Of a stretch of 47,142 bases of DNA, positions 31,848-40,309 are shown in pieces (the stretch's first letter is position 1; every line of letters starts with the position of its first letter). A program made the translations under genes and the position numbers. Source of the DNA: Pirellulales bacterium (GTDB taxonomy: Bacteria > Planctomycetota > Planctomycetia > Pirellulales > JACPPG01). The stretch is from contig DASXEJ010000021.1 of the NCBI GenBank assembly GCA_036490175.1, positions 1 through 47,142 on the forward strand, written 5' to 3'. The notes beneath the pieces are model-generated. The model was not told where the DNA came from. It saw nothing but the letters and a program-made list of their open reading frames with translations, and searched no databases.

Positions 31848-32504
31848 ATGGCCGTCGCCGCCGAGCCGAACGTCAAATGGGCCCACCCACATACGCAAGC
31901 GCGCAGTGAAGAAACGCTCGGGCGGATACTGGATGCGACCGAGGCGCTGCTGACCCGGCACCCGTTCGAGGAAATCTCGATCGGCGATATCGTCCGCAAA
32001 AGCCGCTCGTCCGTGGGGGCGTTCTACGCCCGCTTTCCCGACAAGGACGCACTCTTGGGGTGCCTGTACGAGCGTTTCCGGCAAGAGCAGGCGGAATTGA
32101 CCGACGCGCTGTTCGATCCGCCGCGGTGGCAGAACCAGTCGCTCGCGGCGGTCCTGGCCACAGCGATTCCGTTTCTCGTTCAGTTGCATCGCGACCGGCA
32201 GGGACTCTTGCGGGCCTTCGCGGCCAAGGCCTGTAGCGACGAGCGCTTTCGCCAGGTCTGGAAACAAGCCCGCGACCATGCCGCCAAACGACTCAAGGAA
32301 TTGGTCGCCGCACGAACGGACGAGATCGCGCATCCTGATCCCGAATTGGCCGTCGAGGCGGGCCTGTCGATGGTGATGTGTACGGTCGAACTAAAATTGC
32401 AATTAGGTGAAATCGACGACCCAGCCATGGATGTGCTGGCGCAAGAACTGGTGCGAGCGCTCGTGGCTTATACGGGCATTCGTAACATGGCGGGCGTTCA
32501 GTAA
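31848..32504 (+). CDS. TetR/AcrR-family transcriptional regulator
   Basis: A 218-residue TetR-type repressor. The DNA-binding domain lies at about 22-70: ETLGRILDATEALLTRHPFE, then ISIGDIVRKSRSSVGAFYARFPDKDALL, the usual helix-turn-helix with the Y/F-x-x-F-x-x-K-x-x-L ending. The C-terminal part is all-helical and should bind a ligand and dimerise. The ATG at 31848 has AGGAG nine bases upstream. The palindrome overlapping its own -10 box argues for autoregulation. The next gene on the same strand, 110 bases downstream, encodes the redoxin-cytochrome-monooxygenase fusion and could be a co-regulated target. The ligand is unknown. Confidence 0.92.
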   Translation: MAVAAEPNVKWAHPHTQARSEETLGRILDATEALLTRHPFEEISIGDIVRKSRSSVGAFYARFPDKDALLGCLYERFRQEQAELTDALFDPPRWQNQSLAAVLATAIPFLVQLHRDRQGLLRAFAAKACSDERFRQVWKQARDHAAKRLKELVAARTDEIAHPDPELAVEAGLSMVMCTVELKLQLGEIDDPAMDVLAQELVRALVAYTGIRNMAGVQ

Positions 32505-32614: not shown

Positions 32615-34414
32615 ATGATTGCCAACTTGCGTTTCCGTGGTGCGATGGTCTTGGTCATGCTCTCCTGTGCCTGGTGTTCGCCGGTCGCGTCAGGAGCCGA
32701 AGCGTCGGACGTGCTGCCGAAGTGCCTTGGCCAGAAATCGCCTGATTTTCGCCTGCCCGATGCCAGCGGCCAGGAACATGCACTAGCCGATCTGCAGGAC
32801 GCGCGCTTGGTTGTCGTGGCCTTCTTGGGCACCGAGTGTCCCCTGGCAAAACTGTACGGACCGCGCCTCGAACATTTAGCGGCTCAATACGCGGAACGTG
32901 GCGTACGTGTGCTGGGAATCGACGCCAACGTGCAAGACACCCCTGACGAGGTCGGGGCCTACGCACACGAGCATGGGATCACGTTTCCTCTGTTGGTCGA
33001 TCGCGGCAACATGATTGCCGACAAGCTGGGCGCCACCCGCACTCCCGAGGTGTTCCTGTTGGACGAAAAACGCGTCGTGCGCTATCAAGGACGCATCGAC
33101 GATCAATTCGGCATCGGCGTGCAAAAGGCCAAGCCCACACGGCAGGATCTAGCCACGGCCATCGACGAATTGCTGGCTGGCGGAAACGTGTCCCAGCCCG
33201 AGTTGCCGGCCCCAGGATGTTTTATTGGTCGCGTGACGCGTCCCGCGGCAGACGCCGAGATCACCTATTCGCGACAGATCGCGCGCATCTTCCAGCGGCA
33301 CTGCGTGGAATGCCATCGCGAGGGCGAGATTGGCCCGTTCGCCATGACGAGCTATGCCGAGGTAGTCGGCTGGGGCGAAACCATCCGCGAGGTCGTTGAC
33401 CAAGGACGCATGCCCCCCTGGTTCGCCGATCCCAAGCACGGGAAATTCGTCAACGATCAACGGCTCTCCGACGAAGAAAAACGGCAAATCACGCAGTGGG
33501 TCGCCTCGGGCTGTCCCGAGGGAGATCCTGCCGAGCAGCCTGCACCGCGCACGTTTGTCGACGGTTGGAACATTCCGCAGCCGGACGTGGTCTTCAAGAT
33601 GCGCGCCGAACCGTATCAGGTTCCGGCCGAAGGCGTCGTGGATTACCAGCACTACGTCATCGATCCGGGATTCACCGAAGACAAATGGTCGATTGCCAGC
33701 GAAGCCCGGCCGGGCAACCATTCCGTGGTCCATCACATACTGGTGTTTTTGCACCCGCCGGGCCAGCCGCTCGAGATTGGCCGCGGCTCGCTGCTGGCGG
33801 CGTATGCTCCCGGCTCGCCTCCACGGCAAGTCCAGAAAGGCATGGCGAAACGGATTCCGGCCGGGTCGAAAATCATCATGCAAGTTCACTACACGCCCAA
33901 CGGCCGCCCACAGCAGGATCTCAGCTCGCTGGGCCTGGTGCTGTGCGATGCCAAGGACGTGAAGCAGGAAGTCGAATCCGGTTGGGCCGTGAACTTTGCC
34001 ATCGCCATACCACCCGGCATGGCGAACTACAAATCTTTCTCGATGCACCGATTCGAGGATGACCGGCTGCTGTTGATCCTCACGCCGCACATGCATATGC
34101 GCGGCAAATCGTTCCGTTACGAAGCATGGTATCCCACCGGCAAGCGCGAGGTGCTGTTGGATGTTCCCCGCTGGGACTTCAACTGGCAAATCGACTACGT
34201 GCTGGCCGAGCCGAAGTTGATGCCCAAGGGGACGCAGTTACGCTGCTTCGCGACGTACGATAATTCGCCGTCGAACCCGGCGAATCCCGACCCCAACAAA
34301 TGGGTCTTCTTCGGCGAGCAGAGCTGGGACGAGATGATGATGGGTTGGTTCACCGCCGCCACATTACCCCCCAGCCCGCAGGCCGGCCCGACCGAAGTGA
34401 CCGGCGGACAATAA
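32615..34414 (+). CDS. Redoxin - cytochrome c - copper monooxygenase-like fusion protein
   Basis: A 599-residue exported protein with three parts. A signal peptide covers about 1-28. A peroxiredoxin/TlpA-like thioredoxin domain (about 38-190) has a single cysteine, Cys75, in FLGTECPLAK. A short cytochrome c-like segment holds one heme site, Cys230-x-x-Cys233-His234, with Met266 in RMPPWF as a possible axial ligand. The C-terminal half (about 310-580) resembles the copper type II ascorbate-dependent monooxygenases (PHM/DBH): His373-His374 in VVHHILVF, His425 in QVHYTPNG, His492 and His494 in TPHMHMRG, and a Met in DEMMMGWF match the His3 and His2Met copper sites. It could be a periplasmic oxidase or hydroxylase with built-in electron-transfer domains. 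The substrate is unknown. No strong ribosome-binding site precedes the ATG. Confidence 0.85.
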   Translation: MIANLRFRGAMVLVMLSCAWCSPVASGAEASDVLPKCLGQKSPDFRLPDASGQEHALADLQDARLVVVAFLGTECPLAKLYGPRLEHLAAQYAERGVRVLGIDANVQDTPDEVGAYAHEHGITFPLLVDRGNMIADKLGATRTPEVFLLDEKRVVRYQGRIDDQFGIGVQKAKPTRQDLATAIDELLAGGNVSQPELPAPGCFIGRVTRPAADAEITYSRQIARIFQRHCVECHREGEIGPFAMTSYAEVVGWGETIREVVDQGRMPPWFADPKHGKFVNDQRLSDEEKRQITQWVASGCPEGDPAEQPAPRTFVDGWNIPQPDVVFKMRAEPYQVPAEGVVDYQHYVIDPGFTEDKWSIASEARPGNHSVVHHILVFLHPPGQPLEIGRGSLLAAYAPGSPPRQVQKGMAKRIPAGSKIIMQVHYTPNGRPQQDLSSLGLVLCDAKDVKQEVESGWAVNFAIAIPPGMANYKSFSMHRFEDDRLLLILTPHMHMRGKSFRYEAWYPTGKREVLLDVPRWDFNWQIDYVLAEPKLMPKGTQLRCFATYDNSPSNPANPDPNKWVFFGEQSWDEMMMGWFTAATLPPSPQAGPTEVTGGQ

Positions 34415-35539: not shown

Positions 35540-37195
35540 CTACGGCGCGGGGGCCGCGGCTGCTTCGTCGGCATCTATCAGGCCATCCCGATTCTTATCC
35601 AACCGTGCGAACGCGTCCGCCGTGCCGAGAAATTCTCGCGCGCTAAGATCACCATCCTGGTTTCTATCCATCGCCACGAACCATTCCGGACCCGCGGCAT
35701 GCGCCTCGCGCTTTGACCCACCCAGACCCAATCGCGCCCCGGCAGTGCGGGCGTCGGCAAACTCGGCCGACACGCGAAATAGTTCCAGCGTCAGCCGCTG
35801 CGTGATCTCATCCCCTGCCAGAAAATTATCGCCGTTGCGGTCCGCCACGGCGATCAATTGCGGCGCGGCCAGAATCTCGCGCACAGAGAGCTGATGGTCC
35901 GGAGCATCTGACGTGCTGTCCAAAAGATCGAATAAGTCCTGCCCTCCGTTGATGACTCGCAACACCAGCCGCGTGCTGGCCGCCTGCACCCTGGTGTGCA
36001 GATAGGGCTTGAATTCCTCCGGCGAAACCTTGCCGTCTTTGTCGGCGTCCATCGCCACCAGCGAACCGGCCACGAGCGACGCGCGCTGACACTCGGCCTC
36101 GTCCAGGTAACCGTTCTTGTCGCCATCGTAGTCAGCAAAGGGAAACTCGTCGTCGATGCTGCGGCCCGGATTGCGATTATGCCGCCTTAGTTCGATCTCG
36201 AGTCCACGCCCTTCAATCCGCAGGTCGCCCGTGAGCCGACGATGAATCGTAAAAGCCGAGGCTTTGCCGCTGGCATTCGACCGCCGTGTTCCGGCGGGAC
36301 CAGCCCCGATCGGAATCGATACTTCCAGATCGAAGTGTTGCTGGTAGGCCGCGGCCAATTCGTCGGCCGTCGCGCGGCCGGAATCCGCGTCGGACAATTG
36401 GCGCACGATCGCTGGCTCGGGCAGTAGTTCGGCATCGTCGCCCGCGATCGAGAGTTGGCCGTCGTGGTTGCGGTCGTAATGCTTTAGCAAGGCCGCGGCA
36501 ATCTGCGCGCGAGAGACGTCAGACCCCAGGGCCAGCACGGTCGATGGCGTCTCGCCGATCGAATTCCCTTCAGACACGTCCGATTTCGCCACGGCGCGCG
36601 GATCGTCAATCAGTTCATCGGCGGTAATGGCTTCGTCATCGTTGAAGTCGCGACGCCGGAGCAATTGCTCGGCGGCCTGTAATTCGGCCAGCGATAGCCG
36701 ACGATCGCCGTCGGAATCGAGGATGGCGAAGATGGCCGTCCCGTTCACGCTCGGCTCCTCGCGCACAACCAGCGGCGGCGCGGCCTGCAGAAAATACGCG
36801 ACCATTTCTGCCGAGCCCAACGTGGCGCCGTCAACTGCCAATCGCTTTAATTCCGCCACCGCCTCCCGGCCCGGTCCACAAATCATGCCGGCCAGCTTGC
36901 TGGCTTGCTCGACCGTAATGCGACCATCGCCATCAGCATCGATGTCGGCAAAGGCCCGCTCGATGCGCTCCTGCCACGCTTGCCGGAACGGGGTTTTATC
37001 CACTGCAATGTGCAGCCGCAGCGCGAGCGGCTTCAAGGGCGTGAAGAGTATCAGGTCCTGTACATCGGCAGCCACTTCGTCGCGGGCTGCGACAGAGGCG
37101 TTCACCTTTACCGACGTATCAAGCGGCGCATCGTCTGCCGCCAATACCGCTCCGCAGCCAAACAGATACACAACCGCCAGGCACAACCGCTGCAT
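35540..37195 (-). CDS. Secreted protein with about nine EF-hand motifs
   Basis: A 551-residue exported protein. A signal peptide spans about 1-19 (LAVVYLFGCGAVLAA). EF-hand loops of the D-x-D/N-x-D-G-x-[IVL]-x-x-x-E type recur: DIDADGDGRITVEQ, DSDGDRRLSLAE, DFNDDEAITADE, DRNHDGQLSIAG, DYDGDKNGYLDEAE, DADKDGKVSPEE, DRNGDNFLAGDE, DRNQDGDLSARE and DKNRDGLIDADE. Some lack the final Glu or a middle Asp and may not bind calcium. They are spread along the chain rather than in tandem pairs only. The likely role is calcium-dependent structure or binding outside the cytoplasm. The start codon directly abuts the stop of the DUF1501 gene (TAGATG), so the two are translationally coupled; DUF1549/1553 lies upstream in the same operon. 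Confidence 0.9.
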   Translation of the reverse strand: MQRLCLAVVYLFGCGAVLAADDAPLDTSVKVNASVAARDEVAADVQDLILFTPLKPLALRLHIAVDKTPFRQAWQERIERAFADIDADGDGRITVEQASKLAGMICGPGREAVAELKRLAVDGATLGSAEMVAYFLQAAPPLVVREEPSVNGTAIFAILDSDGDRRLSLAELQAAEQLLRRRDFNDDEAITADELIDDPRAVAKSDVSEGNSIGETPSTVLALGSDVSRAQIAAALLKHYDRNHDGQLSIAGDDAELLPEPAIVRQLSDADSGRATADELAAAYQQHFDLEVSIPIGAGPAGTRRSNASGKASAFTIHRRLTGDLRIEGRGLEIELRRHNRNPGRSIDDEFPFADYDGDKNGYLDEAECQRASLVAGSLVAMDADKDGKVSPEEFKPYLHTRVQAASTRLVLRVINGGQDLFDLLDSTSDAPDHQLSVREILAAPQLIAVADRNGDNFLAGDEITQRLTLELFRVSAEFADARTAGARLGLGGSKREAHAAGPEWFVAMDRNQDGDLSAREFLGTADAFARLDKNRDGLIDADEAAAAPAP

Positions 37196-38539
37196 CTAAA
37201 GAATCTCCGCCAGCGGCTGGGCCTTGCTATCGACAATACCGATCGGCCGGCCCGTGTTCGAGATGTTCTGCTTTGCCGGATCGATGTCCAGAGCCTGGCA
37301 AATCGTGGCCAACAGGTCGGGCACGGCGACCGGGCGGTCTTCGATCGTGGTGCCATCGGCGCTCGTGCGGCCGATGGCCTGGCCGCCGCGGATGCCGCCG
37401 CCTGCAAGCACAGCGCTCCAAGCATTTGGAAAGTGATCTCGCCCGCCGCCAGGATTGATCTTGGGGGTACGGCCGAATTCCCCCATCCACACGACCATGG
37501 TGCTGTCGAGCAAGCCGCCAGCGCGCAGGTCGTCCAAGAGAGCTGACCAGGCCGGATCAAGCACTCCGCTGAGTTTCTTCACGGTCTCGAAATTATCGGC
37601 GTGCGTGTCCCAACCAAGTACCTGGTTGTCGACGCCGCTGAGCGTGACCTCGACAAACGGGACGCCCCGCTCGACCAATCGACGGGCCAGCAGGCAACCC
37701 TGACCGAATTTGCTTTTGCCGTACCGCTCGCGGGTGGCATCGGTCTCTTCGCCGAGTTCGAAAGCCTTGGCAGCGGCGCTGCGCATCAAACGCACCGCCC
37801 GCCCGTAAGCCACGTCATGCGGGGCCGCGGCCGGGCGCTCGCGGATGAAGCGGTTATTCTGCGCCGTTAATAACGACAACCGGCCGTCGACCGAATCCGG
37901 GCTAACTGTGTCCGGCAGCGCGAGGTTTTCTACCTTCAGCGCCACCGGGCTGTTGCCCTCGCCGCCACTAGGGCCGTCGCCAACCACCAATGGCGCGTAG
38001 TTCGGACCTAAAAAACCTGGCCCGTAAGCGGCCGGCGCAAGCGATCTGAAAGGCGCGATGCTGACAAAGTTCGGCAGTTCGGCATCGTCGTGCCCCAACT
38101 CCTTGGCCACCAGCGATCCCAGCGTGGGATAGCGAATCGCACCCACCGGCAGATAGCCCGTGCGCACCAGCGTGGTCGCACGGCCGTGGTCCCCTTCCTT
38201 CGTGGTCATTGAGCGGATGATGGCCATGTCCGAGGCATGCGTCGCCAGGCGCGGCAAGTGTTCCGAGATCTTTACGCCCGACACCGTGGTATCGATGTCT
38301 TTGAAAGAGCCGCCGTTGTCCGTGCCCGGTTTCAGGTCGAAGGTATCCATCTGGCTCGGTCCGCCGTTCATCCACAGCAGGATGCAGCTGCCGCGCCGCT
38401 TGGCAGGATTGCTGGCCGCGGCCAGCGCTTCCAGCCAGCCCGACATTGAGCCGCCCAGCACCCCGGCCGCCGAGAGTTGCATCCAACGGCGACGATCGCT
38501 GCGCGATAGATCCGACAGGCGTTTCAACAATCGGCTCAT
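37196..38539 (-). CDS. DUF1501 protein, Tat-type leader
   Basis: A 447-residue member of DUF1501, a family with an alkaline phosphatase/sulfatase-like fold that is very abundant in planctomycetes. The N-terminus has a twin-arginine-type signal: DRRRWMQLSAAGVLGGSMSG (about 15-34), so it should be exported folded by Tat. Family motifs include CILLWMNGGPSQMDTFDLKP, SEHLPRLATHASDMAIIRSM, GDHGRATTLVRTGYLP, TLSGVDNQVLGWDTHADNFE, VVWMGEFGRTPKINPGGGRDH and AGGGIRGGQAIGRT. The D-T-F-D, G-E-F-G-R-T-P and G-R-D-H segments hold the likely metal ligands. It lies between the DUF1549/1553 gene (54 bases upstream) and the EF-hand gene. The substrate and reaction are unproven. Confidence 0.93.
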   Translation of the reverse strand: MSRLLKRLSDLSRSDRRRWMQLSAAGVLGGSMSGWLEALAAASNPAKRRGSCILLWMNGGPSQMDTFDLKPGTDNGGSFKDIDTTVSGVKISEHLPRLATHASDMAIIRSMTTKEGDHGRATTLVRTGYLPVGAIRYPTLGSLVAKELGHDDAELPNFVSIAPFRSLAPAAYGPGFLGPNYAPLVVGDGPSGGEGNSPVALKVENLALPDTVSPDSVDGRLSLLTAQNNRFIRERPAAAPHDVAYGRAVRLMRSAAAKAFELGEETDATRERYGKSKFGQGCLLARRLVERGVPFVEVTLSGVDNQVLGWDTHADNFETVKKLSGVLDPAWSALLDDLRAGGLLDSTMVVWMGEFGRTPKINPGGGRDHFPNAWSAVLAGGGIRGGQAIGRTSADGTTIEDRPVAVPDLLATICQALDIDPAKQNISNTGRPIGIVDSKAQPLAEIL

Positions 38540-38593
38540 GCTCGCCTCTCCTAGAATCAGCGGCTGAAATCGGCACGCGATTCGCCGCTGGCA

Positions 38594-40309
38594 TTAATGG
38601 TTGGACACGAACTCGGCACTATTCAAAAGCACCCACAGGACATCGGCCAAGCGGCCGTCTTGATCGCCGGCTTTGACGTAGGCCAGGAATTCGGCCGTTT
38701 CGTCATCGTGGGGCATGCGACAAAGTGTCGCTAAAAACAACATGTCCACGCGATCTTTGGCGTCGACGAAGGGGATCTTGCGGATCGCGGTCAATGTCTT
38801 GCTACGGTCGACGCTGGTCGCATCTCCCACCAGCTTGCCGTTCATCAGCGTCAGGGCTTGCACGATCGTGGTTTGATTTTCACTGCGCTGGCGCCCCTCG
38901 GCGGCAAACTTGTTGCGAAAATCAACCCGCACCGAATCGGCCTGAAACGGCTGCGCGTTGCGCGGCGGCGGCGCTTCGTAAAAGCCGGTCGCCTGCACCA
39001 GGCTGTCGAATAGCTGATCGGCCGTCATGCGGCGCACAGGCATGCAGGCGAATTGAGCGGTTAGGTCCGTGTCGGTCGTCGGAACCTTGCTCGACAACTG
39101 ATAGGCGCGCGACAGGGCAATGCCGCGCATCAACTGCTTGAGATCAAACCGCGTGGCAACAAATTGCTCGGCCAACTGCTCCACCAACTGGGCGCGGCGC
39201 GGGTCAGGCGCTTCCACGGAGTCAGCTGGTGCGGAAAGGCTCTTGCCGAAAAACTGCTCCCAGACGCGGTTCACGGCCGCGCGGGCAAAAAACGGATTTT
39301 GCGGGTGCGTCATCCATTGGGCGAGCGCCGTCCGATTGCCAATCTCGGCCCGCCACGTGGGAACGGACCCGTCCAAAAACTTTGGCAGCGCCACCATCTC
39401 GGTACCGGGGATTTTCAATCCGCCCCGATCGAAACTGTCGGACAGCGACACCATCATCATGTTGTCGGCAGTCGGCCCATCCAGGCCGCGAAAGAACGCC
39501 GCCAGCGACCAGAAATCTTCTTGCTTCCATTTGGCGAAGGGATGGTCGTGGCACTGGGCACATTCGACCTGCACGCCCAGGAAAACGCTCGATAGGCTGG
39601 CGGCGATGCTTTCTGGCTTGCGTTCGTTCGCCTGGAAGAAGGCAATCGGACTGGGAATGGTCCCGGCCAATGGTTGCCCGCGGCGCGTGGGCAGGGCGCT
39701 GCTGCTGGATACCAACTCTGCCACCAGTTGGTTGTAAGGCGTGTTGGCGGTGAAACGCAGTCGCAGCCACGACTCCAGCTCGGGTAACGAAACACGCAAC
39801 TCGGGATTCGTCCCCAACAGCAAAGTATCTCGCCAGGTGTTGGCGAAGTGGGATGCGCAGATCGCGCTCGCCAATAGTTGGTCGACAAGCCGCTCGCGCT
39901 TATTGGCCCCTGTATCGGACAGAAACTCTCTGGACTGCGCGACGGAAGGAATCTTGCCGGCCAGGTCCAGGTAGATACGTCGCATGAACTCGGCGTCGTC
40001 CGACGCAATCGTCGGTTCGATGCCCGCCGCCAACCACGCCTCGGCCAGTGCCTGGTCGATTTGCGCCGTCATCTCTCGCGCGCGGGCATGATTGGGCGCG
40101 GCCAAAGCCGTCGCCGCCGGCGGCTGAACAGCAGGCAGTGCTGCCGGTGCCTCGGCCAGACCATGCAGCGGATTTAAGCACCAGCCGTACACGCCGATGC
40201 ATAGAAATGTCAGTGCGAGGAATCGGCCGCGGCCGCGCACCGCCACAAATCTTGAAACATAACGGCCGACCCGGAATCGGGTCTGTGGGCCCTGCCATAA
40301 GAACGCCAT
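38594..40309 (-). CDS. DUF1549/DUF1553 (PSCyt2-PSD1) protein
   Basis: A 571-residue planctomycete-type protein. A hydrophobic anchor or signal lies at about 29-52 (RFLALTFLCIGVYGWCL). DUF1549 follows: FMRRIYLDLAGKIPSVAQSREFL, FANTWRDTLLLG, and a heme-like VECAQCHDHPFAKWKQEDFW with Cys250-x-x-Cys253-His254. The C-terminal DUF1553 part includes MTHPQNPFFARAAVNRVWEQFFG, RAYQLSSKVP, RRMTADQLFDSLVQATGFY and LFLATLCRMP. The lack of an N-terminal cytochrome domain makes it a short form. It is regularly paired with DUF1501 proteins, as here, 54 bases upstream of one. The CxxCH may bind heme or be structural. The function is not established. Confidence 0.92.
   Translation of the reverse strand: MAFLWQGPQTRFRVGRYVSRFVAVRGRGRFLALTFLCIGVYGWCLNPLHGLAEAPAALPAVQPPAATALAAPNHARAREMTAQIDQALAEAWLAAGIEPTIASDDAEFMRRIYLDLAGKIPSVAQSREFLSDTGANKRERLVDQLLASAICASHFANTWRDTLLLGTNPELRVSLPELESWLRLRFTANTPYNQLVAELVSSSSALPTRRGQPLAGTIPSPIAFFQANERKPESIAASLSSVFLGVQVECAQCHDHPFAKWKQEDFWSLAAFFRGLDGPTADNMMMVSLSDSFDRGGLKIPGTEMVALPKFLDGSVPTWRAEIGNRTALAQWMTHPQNPFFARAAVNRVWEQFFGKSLSAPADSVEAPDPRRAQLVEQLAEQFVATRFDLKQLMRGIALSRAYQLSSKVPTTDTDLTAQFACMPVRRMTADQLFDSLVQATGFYEAPPPRNAQPFQADSVRVDFRNKFAAEGRQRSENQTTIVQALTLMNGKLVGDATSVDRSKTLTAIRKIPFVDAKDRVDMLFLATLCRMPHDDETAEFLAYVKAGDQDGRLADVLWVLLNSAEFVSNH

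Follow-up and report, generated by a model that had tools for sequence, protein, structure and literature searches.

A proposed PHM/DBH-class copper monooxygenase with fused heme and redoxin modules in planctomycetes

A 47,142-nucleotide stretch of DNA from a Pirellulales bacterium (contig DASXEJ010000021.1, hereafter the window) contains a single open reading frame for a 599-residue protein in which a redoxin, a mono-heme cytochrome c and a PHM/DBH-type copper domain are fused. The gene begins with ATG and occupies positions 32615–34414 of the plus strand, the coordinates at which an earlier sequence-only reading had placed it, and all features of the fusion protein given below lie on that strand. 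From the N- to the C-terminus the order is a signal-like stretch, the redoxin, the cytochrome c and the PHM/DBH-type domain. Residues 1–28 (32615–32698) resemble a signal peptide and are modelled with a pLDDT below 50 for most of their length, and the protein looks exported as judged from its sequence. An AF2 model built with an 80-sequence input has a mean pLDDT of 90.9 and a pTM of 0.86. The three domains, the PHM fold, six candidate copper ligands, a heme-attachment site with an invariant methionine and two redoxin cysteines are apparent in the sequence and the predicted structure. We propose, with somewhat better than even confidence, that the protein is an exported copper monooxygenase of the PHM/DBH class that carries its own electron-supply modules.

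The copper domain is not recognizable in the window protein taken alone. About 270 residues after the cytochrome have no Pfam match, Cu2_monooxygen and Cu2_monoox_C being unmatched even at an E value of 1, and profiles were needed because single-sequence Pfam and NCBIfam scans both miss the PHM part. When 177,635 PDB sequences were searched with a profile of 15 paralogs from the same genome, only PHM entries were matched (12 sequences, best E value 6.7e-6), and a profile of 31 diverse sequences, searched against the same 177,635, matched nothing but DBH and PHM, with human DBH best (4.6e-8) and PHM next (8.5e-8). With a whole-protein profile, redoxins fill the best 60 of 222 PDB matches. Among 80 homologs scanned with Pfam at E values up to 1, Cu2_monoox_C is found in 62 (best 4.9e-8) and Cu2_monooxygen in 13. 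The N-terminal half of the domain, the CuH half (residues 324–455; 33584–33979), is defined by profile and structural matches and the C-terminal CuM half (residues 456–587; 33980–34375) by Pfam, profile and structural matches.

The sequence-only reading had listed a full HH, H, HxH and M set of copper ligands, and all six residues are present and invariant in an 80-row alignment. In the profile alignments H373 and H374 (33731–33736) fall on the HH pair of PHM and DBH and are the predicted CuH ligands equivalent to PHM H107 and H108, while H425 (33887–33889), the third predicted CuH ligand, lies in a QVHY/EVHY motif common to PHM and DBH and corresponds to PHM H172. H492 and H494, which flank a methionine (34088–34096), fall on the HxH pair and are predicted CuM ligands equivalent to H242 and H244 of PHM, which we take to be its CuM histidines. 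The last predicted CuM ligand, M574 (34334–34336), is part of a DEMM-type motif that lies opposite the methionine of the PHM DEM(C) motif, M314. M574 is aligned just in a sub-threshold second stretch of the 31-sequence profile. PDB titles name PHM variants at H107, H108, H172 and M314.

Structure prediction, which had been suggested as a check, bears out the assignment. PHM and DBH are the top Foldseek matches of the model (E values 1.1e-15 and 1.2e-13), PHM being the best. VIA-align superimposes model residues 324–587 on residues 62–327 of rat PHM (Z score 21.9, 246 aligned residues, 2.7 Å), the match ending at model residue 587 and PHM residue 327, and aligns 266 residues with human DBH (4zel) at a Z score of 21.8 and 3.4 Å; the absence of a family from the VIA-align list was not counted as its exclusion. 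With homology to both halves, a predicted PHM double jelly-roll fold and the six ligands, the window protein is assigned by sequence and model to the PHM/DBH superfamily. Two copper sites about 11 Å apart, the spacing named in the sequence-only reading, would follow from the PHM-like fold together with the aligned ligands. It resembles PHM (PF01082/PF03712) in its fold over residues 324–587 and in the HH/H/HxH/M ligands, but it is only about 17% identical, is bacterial, is fused to heme c and redoxin modules and does not keep the peptide anchors discussed below. DBH carries a DOMON domain and has neither the cytochrome c nor the redoxin of the window protein. PHM is described as a double jelly-roll protein that is widespread in eukaryotes (PMC8812541).

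Conservation was assessed in two alignments. The 80-row alignment comprises the window protein and 79 of 80 loci, with one partial locus (L082) left out; the loci were kept from at least 593 matches in a species collection by means of two peptide patterns, one of which contains HMHxRGK, and wherever the record title of a kept locus names a taxon it is a planctomycete. The histidine columns that are invariant in all 80 rows are exactly 234, 373, 374, 425, 492 and 494, that is, the heme histidine and five copper-type histidines, and M266, M574, C75, C202, C230 and C233 are likewise invariant. The invariance of positions 492 and 494 is partly by construction, since the HMHxRGK pattern was used to find loci. 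The second alignment, of the 15 own-genome paralogs, which were retrieved with the whole protein, shows the same conservation, M574 being present in each of the 14 untruncated sequences. The domains have correlated pairwise distances (r from 0.31 to 0.56, with none of 200 permutations as high), as expected for modules that are inherited jointly.

The mono-heme cytochrome c domain (residues 215–300; 33257–33514) contains the one CxxCH site of the protein, which the sequence-only reading had also given as single. This is CVECH at residues 230–234 (33302–33316), with Cys230, Cys233 and His234 all invariant. M266, in an RMPPW motif (33410–33412), does not vary in either alignment (80 and 15 rows) and is a candidate distal heme ligand. 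Pfam Cytochrome_CBB3 matches with an E value of 1.3e-5, slightly below its curated cut-off. A model of residues 208–322 alone, built with 41 of the 80 rows (pLDDT 86.0), most closely matches mono-heme PccH (4rlr), although weakly (Z score 6.7, 76 aligned residues, 2.0 Å), and PccH is a stand-alone protein of low similarity to the domain. The 18 proteins listed for this model are, judged by their titles, heme-c proteins or proteins containing a heme-c domain, and Foldseek returned nothing for it at E values up to 0.001. The evidence from the fold is modest and that from the motif strong; a CxxCH with a methionine in reach fits a class I-like mono-heme cytochrome c.

The redoxin domain (residues 34–209; 32714–33241) is matched by Pfam AhpC-TSA over residues 39–157 with an E value of 2e-21. 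Among solved structures, the domain comes closest in fold to the single-domain thioredoxin-like proteins 3u5r (Sinorhizobium; Z score 25.9, 174 aligned residues, 1.9 Å), 2cvb (Thermus; 25.7), 2ywo and 2ywi (Geobacillus), all with Z scores of 24.7–25.9, and ResA and DsbE are also among the close folds. The domain had been credited with one cysteine, but there are two: C75, in ECPLAK (32837–32839), is invariant in 80 of 80 rows and in 14 of 14 untruncated paralog rows, and C202, in GCFIGR (33218–33220), is present in every row of both alignments (80 and 15). The GC motif near the C-terminus of the redoxin aligns in 3u5r and 2cvb. A predicted thioredoxin fold with C75 as N-terminal active-site cysteine places the domain with the AhpC/TSA-type redoxins. 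The CxxC of TlpA/ResA proteins is absent, position 78 being alanine in the window protein and in 53 of 80 rows and cysteine in 1 of 80 (2 of 15 among the paralogs), and 2cvb likewise has CxxC where the window redoxin has CxxA.

At one locus (L131; G005:C70, minus strand, 2520–2518) an in-frame TGA falls exactly at the position of C202, and the frame is open on both sides of it, as far as a later TAA. The same genome encodes SelA (E value 1e-169) and SelB (9.6e-108), both above curated cut-offs, so this TGA likely encodes selenocysteine. Exchange of cysteine for selenocysteine usually marks a redox-active residue. With a selenocysteine-like TGA there and both SelA and SelB encoded by the genome, C202 is itself likely to be redox-active. 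The assignment of selenocysteine falls short of proof since the fusion gene is present in only one of the two genomes of that order and the hairpin following the TGA is not outstanding (its 46-nucleotide energy takes rank 52 among the gene's 549 codon windows); Rfam found no SECIS-type family at the locus. Selenocysteine as a general feature of the family was considered and rejected: 13 of 14 loci with an indicated in-frame stop have none in the aligned part, and the remaining one, L129 (the same place as L131), does; L130, taken in addition on the same ground, has none.

PHM and DBH are ascorbate-dependent and transfer electrons between two distant coppers. From the features above we infer metal and heme binding, a flow of electrons, chemistry on O2 and a substrate. 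In the proposed mechanism, electrons from the periplasm would enter via the cytochrome c domain, which would load CuH and CuM singly in place of the ascorbate and cytochrome b561 supply of animals; CuM would then activate O2 and hydroxylate a C–H bond in a substrate that is small and probably hydrophobic. Through C75 and C202 the redoxin could act as a thiol redox partner that clears peroxide from uncoupled turnover; alternatively, it might feed or protect the metal sites, or aid maturation.

The redoxin also invites a different reading, in which the enzyme is driven by peroxide, like a peroxygenase, or scavenges it, with the redoxin and heme handling H2O2, the PHM part using or removing it, and O2 not a true co-substrate. 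AhpC-TSA is present in 80 of 80 rows scanned, and a second invariant cysteine with a selenocysteine-like variant at that position would suit such an enzyme. However, the redoxin, with its CxxA motif, resembles ResA/DsbE-type and thioredoxin-like proteins, and forms without a redoxin occur, and we consider this reading unlikely. These forms are three planctomycete proteins (L104, L105 and L106) that share the cytochrome c and PHM-like domain of the window fusion, with all ligands present, and differ from it in lacking the redoxin and, in L105 and L106, in having EF-hand-like tails; their existence indicates that heme plus PHM is the common core. They also weigh against the notion that the redoxin is a ResA/CcmG-like maturation module whose task is to hold the CxxCH in reduced form so that heme can be attached, the rest of the protein working as proposed above. 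Although ResA and DsbE are near structural neighbours and the redoxin is fused directly to the cytochrome, the second cysteine of a CxxC is, as noted, almost never kept, and we hold a maturation role to be improbable to a similar degree.

Fusion proteins of this kind are common in planctomycetes, as a survey of their architectures established. This genome encodes 15 (the window protein and 14 others, two of them cut by contig ends), and each of five genomes of the genus, this one included, has 12–20 matches at E values up to 1e-60, where a match may be a piece of a protein. Within the class, 55 of 59 genomes have a match, usually 1–5 and 23 in one (G300), and in the phylum sample 121 of 294 genomes have one at E values up to 1e-60, with at most four candidates scored per genome. 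The simplest interpretation of so many paralogs is that the set covers different substrates. Three own-genome paralogs (L013, L016 and L019) have a GAF-like C-terminal domain with E values from 1.8e-6 to 3.8e-4, at or below the curated cut-off. These tails, the EF-hand-like ones and the many paralogs per genome are what a sensor or signalling protein might display, its heme/copper/thiol unit reading O2 or the redox state without being a catalyst. Yet none of the 80 rows departs from the set of six copper ligands, the window copy has neither kind of tail and it looks exported, and we judge a sensory role a little less probable still than the two readings just discussed. In a tandem pair of paralogs (L018; G000:C2, 2580–6891), each member has a glycine-rich insert of variable length between the HH pair and the next ligand.

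Outside the phylum, plasmid records were searched. An actinobacterial relative (L115; NZ_LT559118.1, 3593–4954) has a PHM-like frame with 26.5% identity in which the HH, HxH and DEMC motifs are present, and the record has no annotated gene there. No CxxCH is present in frame upstream of its PHM part, so some relatives must obtain their electrons in another way.

The substrate cannot be carried over from PHM, because its peptide anchors are not kept. The residues that anchor the peptide carboxylate in PHM are R240, N316 and Y318. At the equivalent positions 490, 576 and 578, set by counting from H492 and M574, the commonest residues are M/S/T/F, I/V and Y/F/W, respectively, and the anchors are mostly absent. 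A true peptide hydroxylase or amidating enzyme like animal PHM, for which the fold and metal ligands identical in kind would speak, is on this account very improbable.

One branch of the family provides a hint of another substrate. At eight loci (L047, L051, L079, L088, L092, L096, L098 and L101) a gene for an MMPL/RND transporter lies directly downstream on the same strand, with gaps of −32 to 280 bp. These loci are eight of the nine rows of one clade in a quick tree (SH-aLRT 99), and no such gene was found at the 71 loci outside it, where downstream sequence of at least 2.4 kb is available for 58 of the 79 tree loci overall; the ninth row (L087), with about 1.3 kb of downstream sequence only, has no such gene there. 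Matches of these transporters to the HAE3, MMPL and HpnN models fall below the cut-offs, and the fusion gene and the MMPL/HpnN-like transporter gene form an apparent two-gene operon in this clade. An RND transporter of the hydrophobe or hopanoid kind hints, for that branch alone, that the substrate may be hydrophobic; the window protein lies outside it. As a family-wide clue the gene neighbourhood was rejected: sulfatase genes lie near nine loci and were given no weight because they occur in both orientations and have no fixed place.

The superfamily of the copper domain is a known one; the arrangement with tethered heme and redoxin was not found in print. No publication describing a redoxin–heme c–PHM fusion was recognized by titles and the starts of abstracts, in a search that most subscription papers fall outside, and the available parts of PMC6107167 and PMC8567305 do not treat one. 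Sequence databases very probably contain such proteins already. More broadly, and with slightly less than even confidence, the family may represent an unreported class of PHM-type monooxygenases, spread across the phylum, that are self-wired: heme c would replace ascorbate as electron source, a redoxin (in some cases a selenoprotein) would add a third redox module, and paralog families would hydroxylate varied hydrophobic molecules in the planctomycete periplasm, with an HpnN/MMPL-like lipid transporter as the partner of one branch. The sequence-only reading, in so far as it joined the fold, the six predicted ligands and the fused heme and redoxin modules, is supported by sequence and model alike.

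PHM/DBH-type two-copper domains serve in the synthesis of human peptide hormones and noradrenaline, and the route by which electrons reach each copper is a long-studied question. If the proposal is true, these proteins are bacterial counterparts of animal hormone enzymes, electron transfer to the coppers could be followed directly from a heme donor attached covalently to the same chain, and planctomycetes, whose genomes can have as many as 20 matches or more, would possess an uncharted capacity for periplasmic hydroxylation.

In the window, a TetR-family regulator gene (31848–32504, plus strand; Pfam TetR_N, E value 1.4e-9) lies 110 bp upstream of the fusion gene. The adjacency is kept in three of three genus orthologs examined (fusion proteins 77.6–80.2% and TetR proteins about 80% identical), and the fourth other genome of the genus has no ortholog of the window fusion. 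TetR is not among the recurrent neighbours in the wider locus set, and L022 has no aligned TetR gene. The adjacent regulator probably controls the window copy, and the ligand of the regulator could be the substrate itself or a compound related to it. Elsewhere in the window, at 35540–40309 on the minus strand, a gene for an EF-hand protein lies beside a DUF1501 gene and a PSCyt2/PSD1 (DUF1549/DUF1553) gene, and the three apparently form one transcription unit.
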